NCBI GenBank assembly: GCA_030619985.1
Contig: JAUXAI010000006.1
Coordinates: forward strand, 1-35,620
Origin: a bacterium
GTDB taxonomy: Bacteria > UBP18 > UBA7526
Reading direction: 5' to 3'
DNA: 35,620 nucleotides
Shown: positions 23,117 to 33,579 of the stretch, in pieces
How positions within the stretch are numbered: position 1 is the stretch's first letter
How the letters are laid out: every line of letters begins with the position of its first letter
Translations under genes and position numbers: made by a program
The notes under the pieces: generated by a model
What the model was told of the DNA's origin: nothing
The model's database searches: none
The model's input: the letters and a program-made list of their open reading frames with translations, nothing else

Positions 23117-25092
23117 TGTGCGGTATTTGTGGAACAGTGGGGTTCTCGAATAAAGAGTTATTAGAGAAGATGTGCGATGTAATGAAGCATCGGGGGCCGG
23201 ATGATGAAGGAATGTATCTGTCCAAAGTCCAAAGTCCAAAGTCCAAAGTCCAGGTGGGATTGGGGGTGAGGAGACTTAAGGTCATTGATTTGGAGACCGG
23301 GCATCAGCCGATACATAATGAGGACGAGACTATCTGGATTGTCTCTAATGGTGAAATCTATAACTATAAGGATTTAAGGATTGATTTAAAAAAGAGGGGC
23401 CACAGATTTTATACTAAGAGCGATACTGAGGTTATTGTTCATCTCTATGAAGAGTATGGCGAGGATTGTGTCAAAAAATTGAGGGGAATGTTTGCCTTTG
23501 CCATCTGGGACGAGAAGAAAGAGAAACTCTTTTTGGCCCGCGATAGATTAGGCATCAAGCCCCTCTATTATTTTTCCCATAACAGAGAATTATTATTTGC
23601 TTCTACCATTAAGTCTATCTTCCAATCTTCGAAGATTGGAAGGGAGGTAAATCTTAGGGCTTTGGACTATTATCTAACCTTTCTCTATGTCCCTGCGCCA
23701 GAGACTATGTTCAAAGGGATAAAAAAGCTCCTTCCCGGCCATATCTTGGTTTATGCGAATGGCGAGATCAGTGTTAAACAATACTGGGACTTACCGATCA
23801 CCGATCACTCCGCCCCGGAGGGGCGAGACCCCGCCTCTGGCGGGCGATCACCGATCACCGTTCACGACGAAAAGTATTATGCTGAGAGGATTTATGAGCT
23901 TTTGAAAGAGGCGGTTGAGGAGAGGTTGATGAGTGAAGTCCCTTTGGGCGCTTTCCTGTCCGGTGGCATAGATTCAAGTATTGTGGTTGGTTTGATGAGT
24001 AGAATAATGGACCAGCCGGTCAAGACCTTCTCCATCGGCTATGGGAAAGAGGCCCAGGCATATAACGAACTAAAATATAGCCGTTTAGTAGCGAAGCACT
24101 TCAAAACAGATCATCGGGAATTCATAGTGGAGCCAAAAGTAATTGAACTCTTACCAAAACTTATCTGGCACCTTGAAGAACCCTTTGCCGATTCCTCTGC
24201 CATTGTAACCTATTTAGTCTCTCAGGTAGCAAGAGAGCACGTTACCGTTGCCCTCACGGGTATCGGGGGCGATGAGGCCTTTGGAGGCTATCCCAGGTAT
24301 CTGGGAACTCGTTTTGCAGAGAGTTATCTAAAGATTCCTGAATTTTTGAGAGAGAAAGTAATATCGAGGATTGTTAATGGATTGCCAGAGTCAACCAAGG
24401 GAAGTCATCTCGCCAATAGGCTAAAAAGGTTTATTCGCTTTTCCCCTCTTCCTCCAGAAGAAAGATACATCAGCTGGCTCTCCTTCTTCGATGAAGAGGC
24501 GAGAGGAGAGCTCTATTCTGGGACCTATCAGGATACTATGGAAATCCATAAGTCCTACTTTGAGAAAGCGGGGGCAGAGGATTTTCTGGATAGGGTCTTT
24601 TATGTAGATGTCAAGACCTATCTCCCTGATGATCTCCTCTTTACGGGTGATAGGATGAGTATGGCTAATTCCTTGGAACTGAGGGTCCCCTTCTGTGATC
24701 ACAGACTCTTAGAATTCTCTGCCACTATTCCTCAGGAGATGAAGATAAGGGGATGGCACCTGAAGTATTTGTTGAAGAAGTCTATGTCAGAACTGCTACC
24801 TCCTGCCATCTTAAAGAGAGGGAAGCAGGGGTTCATGGTTCCCCTCGGTATATGGTTCCAGAGGGAGTTAAAAGATTTCACTTCTGAGATTTTATTGGGA
24901 CCTAAGGCGAGTGAAAGAGGATACTTTAAATCCGACTATGTAAAGAGGCTACTGGAAGAACATTATAGTGGAAGAAAAGACAATACTCACCGAATCTGGG
25001 CTTTGTTGGTCTTTGAACTGTGGCATAGAACCTTCATTGATAGTAACGACTTCTTTAAACCCTTAGAATTACCTGGGTTACTAAAAGACTAA
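23116..25092 (+). CDS. asnB: Asparagine synthase (glutamine-hydrolysing)
   Basis: MCGICGTVGF (N-terminal nucleophile Cys), MKHRGPDDEG, SNGEIYNY, LSGGIDSS PP-loop, GDRMSMANSLELRVPFCDHRLLEF. Confidence 0.93.
   Translation: MCGICGTVGFSNKELLEKMCDVMKHRGPDDEGMYLSKVQSPKSKVQVGLGVRRLKVIDLETGHQPIHNEDETIWIVSNGEIYNYKDLRIDLKKRGHRFYTKSDTEVIVHLYEEYGEDCVKKLRGMFAFAIWDEKKEKLFLARDRLGIKPLYYFSHNRELLFASTIKSIFQSSKIGREVNLRALDYYLTFLYVPAPETMFKGIKKLLPGHILVYANGEISVKQYWDLPITDHSAPEGRDPASGGRSPITVHDEKYYAERIYELLKEAVEERLMSEVPLGAFLSGGIDSSIVVGLMSRIMDQPVKTFSIGYGKEAQAYNELKYSRLVAKHFKTDHREFIVEPKVIELLPKLIWHLEEPFADSSAIVTYLVSQVAREHVTVALTGIGGDEAFGGYPRYLGTRFAESYLKIPEFLREKVISRIVNGLPESTKGSHLANRLKRFIRFSPLPPEERYISWLSFFDEEARGELYSGTYQDTMEIHKSYFEKAGAEDFLDRVFYVDVKTYLPDDLLFTGDRMSMANSLELRVPFCDHRLLEFSATIPQEMKIRGWHLKYLLKKSMSELLPPAILKRGKQGFMVPLGIWFQRELKDFTSEILLGPKASERGYFKSDYVKRLLEEHYSGRKDNTHRIWALLVFELWHRTFIDSNDFFKPLELPGLLKD
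23221..23252. repeat. Heptanucleotide tandem repeat (TCCAAAG)4 + TCCA inside asnB
   Basis: tccaaagtccaaagtccaaagtccaaagtcca read directly. Confidence 0.97.
23619..23642. repeat. Perfect 24-bp palindrome inside asnB
   Basis: CTTCCAATCTTC|GAAGATTGGAAG. Confidence 0.97.
23794..23865. repeat. In-frame repeat block in asnB: CCGATCA heptamers around two GC-rich hairpins
   Basis: CCGATCACCGATCAC TCCGCCCCGGAGGGGCGAGACCCCGCCTCTGGCGGG CGATCACCGATCACCGTTCAC; encodes ITDHSAPEGRDPASGGRSPITVH. Confidence 0.9.
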
Positions 25093-27342: not shown

Positions 27343-27408
27343 GAAATCCGAAGCACGAAATCCGAAATCCTAAACAAATTCGAATGCCCGAAACTCAAAA
27401 TCCAAAAC
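27343..27408. repeat. Inner imperfect inverted repeat (left), heptameric GAAATCC units
   Basis: GAAATCC GAAGCAC GAAATCC GAAATCC TAAACAAATTCGAATGCCCGAAACTCAAAATCCAAAAC. Confidence 0.75.
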
Positions 27409-27746
27409 AAAGACGATACGACCTAGAAGAAAGAACCTTCCTGTTTGCTAAAAGAGTAAATAAGTATGTCAATAGACTTCCCAGGACAATCTCCAATATT
27501 GAAAATGGGAAACAACTGGTAAGAGCAGCAGGTTCTGTGGGAGCAAATTACATTGAAGCCAACGAAGCCCTGAGTAAAAAAGATTTTACTATGAGAATTA
27601 AAATCTGTCGTAAAGAATCAAAGGAAAGTAGATATTGGCTAAGATTAACAGAACCCCTGAAAGATGACCAAAAAGAAAAGGATAGTTTAATTCAAGAAGC
27701 TACAGAACTTATGAAAATCTTTGGTTCCATACTGCAGAAAACATAA
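27384..27746 (+). CDS. Four-helix-bundle protein (23S rRNA intervening-sequence / Avd-like family)
   Basis: YDLEERTFLFAKRVNKYVNRLPRTISNIENGKQLVRAAGSVGANYIEANEALSKKDFTMRIKICRKESKESRYWLRL is diagnostic of this family. Confidence 0.88.
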   Translation: MPETQNPKQRRYDLEERTFLFAKRVNKYVNRLPRTISNIENGKQLVRAAGSVGANYIEANEALSKKDFTMRIKICRKESKESRYWLRLTEPLKDDQKEKDSLIQEATELMKIFGSILQKT

Positions 27747-30548: not shown

Positions 30549-32930
30549 ATGAAGGGAAGGATTCTGTTTCGAATAATAGAAGGGGGACTCCTTTCTATCA
30601 TCCTCTATACCCCTCTCATCCATGCCACGAAGGGGATTGGCACCTTAACCACTACCTATATTCTCATCCTCTTCCTGAGCATGCTCTGGCTCTTGAGGAT
30701 GAATGGCCAGAGAAGTTTTAGATTCATAAATAGTCCCCTAAATCTTCCCTTGGCACTCTTTTTTCTTTTTGCTCTTCTCTCCACCCTTTTCTCTATCAAT
30801 AGAGGAGCGAGTCTCAGTGAACTCTATAAGGTCATTCTCTTCATTTTACTTTATTTCCTTTTAATCAATAATCTTAAAGAGAAATATCAATTCAGGTCTC
30901 TTTTTCTTGCTATCCTGAGTATAGGAGGCATTGTTGCTGCTTATGGGCTCTATCAGTATTTTTCCCATTGGCCGAATTTAACTGAAATTTCCTCTACCTT
31001 CCCTCCCAATCCTAACTCCTTGGCCGGCTATCTCCTCTTAATCATTCCCCTGGCCTTTGTCTATGCCCTATTCGCTTCCCCCAAGTGGCTTTCCAGGATG
31101 AGCTTTGTTATCTCCTTTCTTACTTATTCCTGTCTCTTTGCCACCCATTCTCGAGGAGGACGATTGGCCCTCTTTGGTTCCCTGATCCTTTTCCTCATTC
31201 TCGTCTTCAAGTATCTAAAGAGAGAAGAGCTTCTAAAGGCAAGATGGAGATTCTTAACCTTGGTTCTATTGCTCATCTTTCTCTCGGGAACCTTCTCTTC
31301 CCTCTGTCTCATTCCCAAGCCCTCTTCAGTCCAGCAGATTCCCCAGGTAGAGGAGGCTAACTCTTCTCCGAGAATCGAGGCCCAGGGCCCAAGATATCCC
31401 CTTCGGGAATACTTCCATAGGGGTTTCACCCCTCTGGCGGGGATTTTTCCTGCAACAGTTCGGAAAAATTCCCTGTCACCCCTTGAGGGCAAGCAGATTC
31501 TTTCCCCCAACCCCCCTAATCCTCAGCATCGGAATTATTCAAATTCCGATGCTTCAAGCGATATCCTCTTGGGAGAACCACTTTCCTTCCGTTCCTTCTC
31601 TTTCCAGAGAACCTCGACCAATAAGTTCATCTTCGATAGGCTTAAAATCTGGGGAAGAACCTTGGAGATCATAAGGGACTATCCCCTTTTGGGTAGCGGG
31701 ATGGGGACTTACGGGATAATATTCAAGAGGCATAAGATCCCTACCCCCTTGACTTCCGGAACCATTGCCCGCTATGGTCAATCGGCAAGATTCGCTCATA
31801 ACGAATATCTTCAGATAGCAGCAGAGACTGGCCTCCCCACCCTAATAATCTTCTTATGGATAATAACTCTCATCCTCCGCACCGGCCTAAGGACCTTAAA
31901 AGAGTCTCAAGTAGCACAGGAGGTTTACGGTAAACGGTTAACGGTTAACGGTAAACCATTTATAACCATCGGCCTCCTCTCTGGCCTAACTGGGGTTCTC
32001 CTTCACAGTTTCATCGACTTCGTCCTCCGTCCCCCAGCAACAGATATCTTATTCATCTACTTCATTGCTTTCATCATGCTCCAAGCGAAGACAGGGGACA
32101 GGGGGACAGGGAGACAAAGAGACGGTGAGACGGGGAAACGGAGAAACGGGGAAATCCGTCAACCAGACTTTCTCTTCCGCCATCTTTACCAGAGCCGCAT
32201 TATCCGGGGTAGCCTCATCATCTGTGTTGCCTTAATCCTCGCTGGCCAGGCAACTCTTCCCTTGATAGCCTATAGACACTATAGAAAAGGGATCGACCAT
32301 CAAAAGAATAAGGCCTTCGATCAAGCAATATCCTCTTATCTCACCGCTCAGAGATTAGAGCCCACCAACGACCGCTATCATAAGAACCTAGGAGACCTCT
32401 ATCGCCACCTGGCTCTTCTCTCTAAAGAAGAGAGGAGTTTCTGGCTGGAGAAGGCCACTGAGGAATGTGAGAAGATGGTCAGGTTGAGCCCTCGGGATAA
32501 TCATTACAGGAGGGATTTAGGGGTCATCTATTGGCTCGCCTCCCAGGGAAGGGACAGGCTCCTGATGAATAAGGCCATCACCCAGTTTAAGGAATCTCTG
32601 AGGATCGATCCCACCTTCCCATTTTCTTCTTTCGCTTTAGGGGTCATCTATGCTAAGATAGGTTGGGTAGATAAGGCGATTGAGAGGTTTGAAAGAGCAG
32701 TCTACTACGAGCCAAATTATGCCGAGGCCCGCTATAACCTGGCCACCCTCTATGCTTCCCGGGGCTTATTCAAGAAAGCGATTGCTGAATATCAAGAGAT
32801 TGTTGAGATAGAGAATAAGAATCTATTTCCTAAAGTATCCTGTGGTTACGAGAAGGCCCTGCTCAGCTTCGATTACTCCCTGGCCCATCACGGATTGAGA
32901 AGCTCTCTTAAAAAAGTGGCCAAATTTTGA
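30549..32930 (+). CDS. O-antigen ligase/polymerase-like membrane protein with C-terminal TPR repeats
   Basis: Multi-TM; ATHSRGGRLALF; RLKIWGRTLEIIRDYPLLGSGMGTYGIIF; ARFAHNEYLQIAAETGLPTLIIF; then TPR units such as FALGVIYAKIGWVDKAIERFERAVYYEPNYAEARYNLATLYASRGLFKKAIAEY. Confidence 0.88.
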   Translation: MKGRILFRIIEGGLLSIILYTPLIHATKGIGTLTTTYILILFLSMLWLLRMNGQRSFRFINSPLNLPLALFFLFALLSTLFSINRGASLSELYKVILFILLYFLLINNLKEKYQFRSLFLAILSIGGIVAAYGLYQYFSHWPNLTEISSTFPPNPNSLAGYLLLIIPLAFVYALFASPKWLSRMSFVISFLTYSCLFATHSRGGRLALFGSLILFLILVFKYLKREELLKARWRFLTLVLLLIFLSGTFSSLCLIPKPSSVQQIPQVEEANSSPRIEAQGPRYPLREYFHRGFTPLAGIFPATVRKNSLSPLEGKQILSPNPPNPQHRNYSNSDASSDILLGEPLSFRSFSFQRTSTNKFIFDRLKIWGRTLEIIRDYPLLGSGMGTYGIIFKRHKIPTPLTSGTIARYGQSARFAHNEYLQIAAETGLPTLIIFLWIITLILRTGLRTLKESQVAQEVYGKRLTVNGKPFITIGLLSGLTGVLLHSFIDFVLRPPATDILFIYFIAFIMLQAKTGDRGTGRQRDGETGKRRNGEIRQPDFLFRHLYQSRIIRGSLIICVALILAGQATLPLIAYRHYRKGIDHQKNKAFDQAISSYLTAQRLEPTNDRYHKNLGDLYRHLALLSKEERSFWLEKATEECEKMVRLSPRDNHYRRDLGVIYWLASQGRDRLLMNKAITQFKESLRIDPTFPFSSFALGVIYAKIGWVDKAIERFERAVYYEPNYAEARYNLATLYASRGLFKKAIAEYQEIVEIENKNLFPKVSCGYEKALLSFDYSLAHHGLRSSLKKVAKF
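31526..31552. repeat. Perfect inverted repeat inside CDS
   Basis: GCATCGGAATT-ATTCA-AATTCCGATGC. Confidence 0.95.
31922..31957. repeat. Five heptamers inside CDS, overall near-palindromic
   Basis: GGTTTAC GGTAAAC GGTTAAC GGTTAAC GGTAAAC C; encodes VYGKRLTVNGKP. Confidence 0.93.
32090..32152. repeat. 8-bp-period tandem repeat inside CDS
   Basis: GACAGGG GACAGGGG GACAGGGA GACAAAGA GACGGTGA GACGGGGA AACGGAGA AACGGGGA; encodes TGDRGTGRQRDGETGKRRNGE. Confidence 0.93.
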
Positions 32931-33209
32931 CCCCGCCCCCATTTGTATTAGAGAAAACTTCTTTTAATTCGGCGCTTGAGATTGGCAAGCGAGGTTCCAT
33001 GATGTTTCAATTTTTGCTCACGTTCTCTAGCATCTTTTGGGATACGATAAGTTTCATAATATATCAAAATCCAATTTTTGTCTTTTGCCCAATGTTCTTG
33101 TATCCTCCGTCTCAAATCCGTGGTGGAACCAATATAAATTTTATGTGAAATTCTATTCTGAATAATATAGACGTATGACATAAGAACAAAATGGGGGCGG
33201 GGGTTGACA
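32925..33209 (-). mobile_element. Putative minimal GIY-YIG cassette bounded by inverted repeats
   Basis: Left TTTTGACCCCGCCCCCATTTG (32925-32945), right CAAAATGGGGGCGGGGGTTGACA (33187-33209), with one GIY-YIG gene filling the interval. Confidence 0.6.
32948..33181 (-). CDS. Standalone GIY-YIG endonuclease
   Basis: MSYVYIIQNRISHKIYIGSTTDLRRRIQEHW...REREQKLKHHGT. Confidence 0.88.
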   Translation of the reverse strand: MSYVYIIQNRISHKIYIGSTTDLRRRIQEHWAKDKNWILIYYETYRIPKDAREREQKLKHHGTSLANLKRRIKRSFL

Positions 33210-33232
33210 AGCATCTTTTAATTTGATATACT
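33204..33232 (+). promoter_or_regulatory. Sigma70-type promoter
   Basis: TTGACA (33204-33209) - 17 bp - TATACT (33227-33232), upstream of the regulator gene at 33292. Confidence 0.75.
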
Positions 33233-33291: not shown

Positions 33292-33579
33292 ATGAAGGAT
33301 TTGAGACAGTCGGAGAAGGTCTTTAAGGCTTTAGGGTCCAGGACGCGGCTGAAGCTCTTGAGGCTTCTCTGGCAGGAGGGGGAGTTACCGGTGACCCTCA
33401 TTGCCCGGAGGTCGGGGATGACCATTGCCCGGGTCTCACGTAACTTGGGAATTCTGGAGAATGTAGGATTGGTGAAGACCAAGGAGACCAGAACCTGGGT
33501 CTTCTATTCCATCAATACCAATCCCTCGCATCCCTGGCAGGGGCTTTTGCTCAAACTCCTCAAAGAAGGATTTAAATAA
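33292..33579 (+). CDS. ArsR-like winged-helix transcriptional regulator
   Basis: VFKALGSRTRLKLLRLLWQEGELPVTLIARRSGMTIARVSRNLGILENVGLVKTKETRTWVFYSI. Confidence 0.85.
   Translation: MKDLRQSEKVFKALGSRTRLKLLRLLWQEGELPVTLIARRSGMTIARVSRNLGILENVGLVKTKETRTWVFYSINTNPSHPWQGLLLKLLKEGFK

Follow-up and report, generated by a model that had tools for sequence, protein, structure and literature searches.

The stretch of DNA analysed here (the window; 35,620 nucleotides of contig JAUXAI010000006.1) contains a small cassette that is probably the autonomous copy of an IS/MITE-like family of mobile elements whose sole protein is a GIY-YIG nuclease, as judged from sequence comparison of the window's own genome (G000, 84% complete), its sister genome (G002) and more distant ones. 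The element would be about 270–320 bp long, with inverted terminal arms (core CCCCGC(A/C)CC) around one stand-alone GIY-YIG gene. It would enter T..A-type tetranucleotides (TGAA, TCAA, TTGA, TTCA, TTTA), 4 bp being duplicated on entry, and its internally deleted, nuclease-free copies would spread as hairpin elements of 25–130 bp, similar to MITEs or REP sequences.

The two arms of the window cassette are 14 nt long, 100% complementary and spaced 244 nt apart, and one extra G is found at the right end, between the arm and the right TTGA (Table 1). This perfect pairing gives the unit an arm score of 14, a value of at least 12 being reached by 1/767 control positions under the same scoring and a value of at least 13 by none (0/767), which bears out the sequence-only reading that the gene is framed by inverted repeats. 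An alternative, longer form of the gene would start at an ATG at 33214, its reading frame crossing the right-hand arm. The promoter-like site downstream of the cassette appears to have been preserved through the TTGA duplication.

Table 1. Features of the cassette and of its surroundings in the window
Feature	Position	Strand	Remarks
O-antigen ligase/TPR gene	30549..32930	+	stop codon within left TTGA
Left TTGA direct repeat, putative 4-bp target-site duplication	32927..32930	.	includes upstream gene's TGA stop
Left terminal inverted repeat CCCCGCCCCCATTT	32931..32944	+	core CCCCGC[AC]CC, found genome-wide
GIY-YIG nuclease ORF, 78 aa + stop	32948..33184	minus	codons 32951-33184, stop codon 32948-32950; Pfam PF01541
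Right terminal inverted repeat AAATGGGGGCGGGG(G)	33189..33203	minus	arm proper 33189-33202
Right TTGA direct repeat	33204..33207	.	first four bases of TTGACA −35 box
Promoter-like site (TTGACA, 17 bp, TATACT) of downstream HTH gene	33204..33232	+	from sequence; conserved in L117 and L119; promoter function inferred
HTH regulator gene	33292..33579	+	G004 ortholog has a short element at its ATGAA start

The protein is a member of the GIY-YIG nuclease superfamily, as seen from its fold and its catalytic Y, Y, R and E. A Pfam search gave PF01541, the GIY-YIG domain, as the sole family (E 7e-11, above the cut-off) and no recognised transposase for the window ORF. The motif residues, already described as apparently intact, are Y6, Y17, R27, H31 and E44 (A2 numbering), and they are invariant across 28 relatives. 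The AlphaFold2 model (pLDDT 95.6) consists of one compact GIY-YIG domain, with no additional DNA-binding domain. The closest solved sequences and folds are those of the UPF0213 proteins (1zg2, 1ywl) and of SLX1, a structure-specific nuclease of branched DNA, and this kinship is consistent with a nuclease acting on hairpin or flap ends. To our knowledge, neither SLX1 nor the functionally uncharacterised UPF0213 proteins are enzymes of mobile elements.

The arm core delimits dozens of 25–130-bp hairpin elements in the window genome and its family. The pattern ACCCCGC[AC]CC[AT]TTTT (≤2 mismatches) is found at 113 sites in G000 (11 when the pattern is reversed as a control), and these sites pair up in inverted orientation with 25–130 bp between them and no gene enclosed. 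Such gene-free pairs are also present in five other genomes of the family and in G061 (Wolfebacteria), which contains nuclease cassettes with related arms as well. The ends are therefore common to many copies, the opposite of what would have spoken against a mobile unit in the sequence-only reading, which had also pointed to pairs of ends lacking the nuclease as something to look for; these hairpins are such pairs. The copies that it proposed to search for in this and related genomes exist for the ends and not for the whole cassette, which a genome search found once in G000. Among 380 Patescibacteria genomes searched, short palindromes with the canonical arm are common only in G061, so that the short derivatives are not universal; outside G061, the cassettes of Patescibacteria carry different arm sequences.

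Exact 4-bp direct repeats flank 28 of the 51 paired elements, whereas random re-pairing of the flanks (1000 trials) gave 5.7 on average and at most 13. They comprise TGAA (12), TCAA (6), TTGA (3), TTCA, TATA and TAAA (2 each) and CTCA (1); inverted flanks, among the same 51 elements, are limited to cases in which the repeat is itself palindromic. Within 941 kb of G002, 18 of 30 short pairs have 4-bp direct repeats. The family thus has the short target-site duplication of an insertion sequence, the window copy having TTGA on both sides with its one extra G. In structured RNAs, the insertions lack a clear 4-bp duplication.

Empty counterparts of filled sites, proposed earlier as a check on mobility, were found in three places. 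In a nested insertion of G002 at ATGAA, an inner hairpin lies inside an outer one (...AAAATGAA-element-TGAATATTGA...), the empty state being that of the intact outer hairpins L039 and L071 (AAAATGAATATTGA). At the HTH gene, the start codon is filled in G004 (AATGAA-element-TGAAGGATTTG) and empty in the window genome and in G001 (ATGAAGGATTTG). Finally, the right junction of the window cassette corresponds to an element-free TTGACA promoter in G001 (L117) and G003 (L119), in an alignment that covers the right side only, the upstream genes being different. The nuclease gene is absent from this same promoter in G001 and G003, contrary to the idea of a fixed, syntenic housekeeping gene. The region of the HTH ortholog in G003 (L119) holds runs of N, so that the split HTH match there represents an assembly gap rather than an insertion.

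Most relatives of the nuclease in Patescibacteria and Omnitrophota share this architecture. Of the 45 relatives that belong to the LKxxG/F class, 37 have flanking inverted repeats scoring at least 12, a score reached by a single one of the 767 control positions; the arm sequences vary from element to element, with complementarity kept within each. The arms are mostly absent from lower-scoring GIY-YIG relatives, and are therefore a property of the LKxxG/F class and of part of a second class, with a KYLK motif, rather than of all small GIY-YIG proteins. As in insertion sequences, there are terminal inverted repeats and copies at unrelated sites, the window cassette itself being single-copy.

The KYLK class was observed at L163, L169, L182, L186, L187, L196, L013, L192, L288 and L290; its arms differ, being CCCCGTAGTAGAAATTT-like in some cases and ATCCCGTTAGAGA-like in others. 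A decayed cassette of this class is found in G003 (L255:1400-1850), with arms ACCCCGTTGGAGAT and TTTA on both sides, at the GFSLLE start of a prepilin. In L009, L014, L020, L024, L025 and L027 (~1300-1800 in each), small GIY-YIG genes have tRNA copies, partial or complete, on one or both sides; the frame enters the tRNA sequence in several of them, CCCC arms are absent, and they may constitute a separate, tRNA-associated type. Tandem GIY-YIG ORFs with identical predicted protein sequences are present at L262 and L266 (G060:C10:11024-11582, Omnitrophota).

The cassette is linked to the short hairpins by a 130-bp element of the window genome (G000:C48; L064/L269), which has standard arms, TTCA/TTCA flanks and one open frame, IYYVYLLKSCEKTWIYVGFASDLSRHLQEHSQ, corresponding to the start of the GIY-YIG domain. 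The match of this fragment has an E value of 1e-9 (search space set to 1000), compared with 0.8 for the best shuffled element, and it is the one short element with a statistically clear nuclease remnant. By its sequence, this is an internal-deletion derivative of the nuclease cassette, which implies that short hairpins can arise from cassettes by deletion. Being short non-coding copies with ends in common with an autonomous element, the short elements have the defining character of MITEs. A 230-bp, TGAA-flanked element (L207:14602) considered as a second decayed cassette was discarded, its match being 2.4 bits and below the shuffled controls.

Comparison of sites and genomes demonstrates, at the level of sequence, the mobility of the family, its ends, the length of its duplication and the cassette origin of at least one short element. 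From these features we infer that the nuclease catalyses the movement. It would recognise or cut the hairpin ends and make a 4-nt staggered cut at the target, after which host ligase and polymerase would complete the insertion by joining the ends and filling in the gaps. DNA hydrolysis is the usual activity of the GIY-YIG fold; strand joining by this fold is not known to us.

The hairpins and the cassette could instead be moved in trans by another, unlinked transposase, the GIY-YIG gene being a passenger between two ends, an explanation that we consider rather unlikely. It is kept alive by genomes of the family that contain many hairpins and no detected intact cassette: an intact nuclease with canonical arms was not found in G001 or G003-G005, despite many short elements, in assemblies that are 53–85% complete. 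Moreover, GIY-YIG proteins are not established transposases, and in the Tsy transposon such a nuclease has an accessory, dispensable role (PMC10293859). Against a passenger role, it is the same nuclease subfamily that is framed by arms across phyla, and a fragment of its gene is retained in the C48 element. In addition, in 941 kb of G002, good arm pairs enclose no cassette-type proteins other than two GIY-YIG ORFs; another pair surrounds an ordinary host gene situated between hairpins. Three transposase families were searched for: Y1_Tnp (PF01797) by a profile search of G000 only, where none was found, and DDE_Tnp_1 and rve, of which there are none in G000 or G002; weak or partial rve matches occur in G003, G004 and G061.

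A free-standing homing endonuclease unit, spreading into a homologous empty allele through double-strand-break repair, is a highly improbable explanation. GIY-YIG nucleases are classic homing enzymes, there are weak matches to phage homing families, and GIY-YIG ORFs are known from rRNA insertions of CPR bacteria (PMC11270868). However, the relatives are not confined to homologous sites: they are located in 16S and 23S rRNA, in RNase P RNA, next to tRNAs, in prepilin leader codons and in intergenic gaps. A patescibacterial genome (G422) contains two 310-bp cassettes, 89.4% identical, whose flanks are unrelated and whose duplications differ (TCAA in one, TTGA in the other); conserved terminal repeats together with 4-bp duplications are not expected from homing. 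The unrelated sites, the 4-bp duplications and the unrelated flanks in G422 point to a transposition-like process, so that of the two possibilities in the sequence-only reading, a free-standing homing or a mini-mobile element, the second is retained and the first abandoned. No relatives of the nuclease were found in phage or plasmid collections at E 1e-6. A chance placement of the gene between ordinary terminators of transcription or hairpins of the host is hardly credible: GC-rich inverted repeats at gene ends do look like terminators, but the empty/filled pairs contradict this explanation, as do an arm sequence found genome-wide, direct-repeat flanks, nested insertions and the presence of arms within rRNA, RNase P RNA and prepilin codons.

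The insertions in RNase P RNA adjoin the conserved AGGAAAGTCC, as seen with Rfam and by inspection of the flanks, and the RNase P genes L134 and L140 contain a second, nuclease-free hairpin elsewhere in the gene, with the same or similar arms. Compared with rRNA intervening sequences, the relatives include copies in rRNA, the window copy is located between genes, and the cassette ORF, a GIY-YIG protein, does not encode the four-helix IVS protein.

Insertions would survive through repair by the element of what it breaks, its ends and the duplication rebuilding a stop codon or a GTG/ATG start; in prepilin leaders they would restore the glycine at −1, and on structured RNAs they would form a longer stem. 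The element's last G and the TG of the duplication together make a GTG start codon in 20 of 58 short elements (99 of 2000 random positions), and a stop codon is present at the upstream junction in 12 of 58 (61 of 2000). An AAGG in the arm, ahead of the start codon, is a possible ribosome-binding site. In prepilin genes the cassette is located in the GFT codons, and joining the flanks minus one TTTA yields MRGFTLIEVMLAVV (L133) or, from a GTG start, QGFTLVEILVVVG (L127). The clean cases are L133 and L127/L004 only, L135 having been rejected as its ATG is out of frame. The nuclease ORF crosses the right arm into the pilin, forming fusions of 231–236 aa in which the element end provides a glycine before FTLxE; the N-methylation motif was confirmed by Pfam in two of three fusions, and nuclease and pilin may be parted by prepilin peptidase. 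In structured RNAs, the arms would form an added outward stem. Repair of this kind at start codons, stop codons and prepilin leaders is an example of selection for harmless insertion.

The family is an IS/MITE variant, a family of mobile elements that encode a nuclease where a recognised transposase would be expected, and it may constitute a class of its own should the nuclease prove to be the mover. The arguments seem to us evenly balanced as to a broader proposal, that these are DNA transposons of a new class, the part of the transposase being taken by a stand-alone GIY-YIG nuclease of ~80 residues. Few known autonomous mobile elements would then be as small (~280 bp), palindromic repeats in several candidate phyla would derive from the element, and its ends would serve at the same time as stop codon, as ribosome-binding site with start codon, as glycine of a prepilin leader or as RNA stem, thereby making insertions nearly harmless. 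With insertion sequences and MITEs it shares one gene, terminal inverted repeats, a short target duplication and internally deleted derivatives, but its gene encodes a GIY-YIG nuclease of 78–90 aa and the whole unit, of ~300 bp, is smaller than any IS known to us. REP/RAYT systems are similar in combining many small hairpins with a single enzyme gene that has this hairpin at its flanks. Here, in contrast, the enzyme is a GIY-YIG protein and there are 4-bp duplications, and membership was rejected on the absence of the Y1 (IS200-like) transposase from G000.

Rickettsia palindromic elements, also short, palindromic, non-coding mobile units found in part in genes and RNAs, enter, like other small repeats, protein genes, RNase P RNA and tmRNA, with the mover unknown (PMC2229807). 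They differ from the present elements in sequence and hosts, and the cassette, which has ends in common with the hairpins, is here a candidate for the autonomous partner. The means by which small palindromic repeats spread through bacterial genomes, RNase P RNA and protein genes among their sites, have been an open question (PMC2229807). The repeats described here match a tiny GIY-YIG cassette in their ends, in the length of the duplication and in one remnant of the nuclease gene, and the question thereby becomes directly testable.

A survey of CPR rRNA genes (PMC11270868, J Bacteriol 2024) described GIY-YIG ORFs inside rRNA, in insertions outside group I/II introns and at varied stem-loop sites, and judged them to be outside homing. 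That survey probably recorded the elements described here, in one of the types of site that they occupy. The words "inverted" and "hairpin" do not appear in the text of that survey, to which conserved arms, 4-bp duplications, nuclease-free relatives and non-rRNA sites are added here. No account of an arm-flanked GIY-YIG element, or of GIY-YIG as the sole gene with terminal repeats and target duplications, was found in the literature searched (without subscription papers and preprints). If the nuclease is the mover, an enzyme class would be added to DNA transposition, and the GIY-YIG rRNA insertions of candidate phyla would be explained.

Two other features of the window were observed. A gene for a four-helix bundle protein (TIGR02436, E 1e-20) is located between genes at 27384-27746. 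TIGR02436 proteins are of the kind found in rRNA intervening sequences. This gene had been thought to follow the same logic as the nuclease cassette, which is not supported, there being no CCCC arms around it; its flanks contain repeated AATCTGTG phrases instead. The asparagine synthase gene contains, in frame, a GC-rich palindromic stretch at 23807-23845 (CTCCGCCCCGGAGGGGCGAGACCCCGCCTCTGGCGGGCG), possibly another small repeat insertion.
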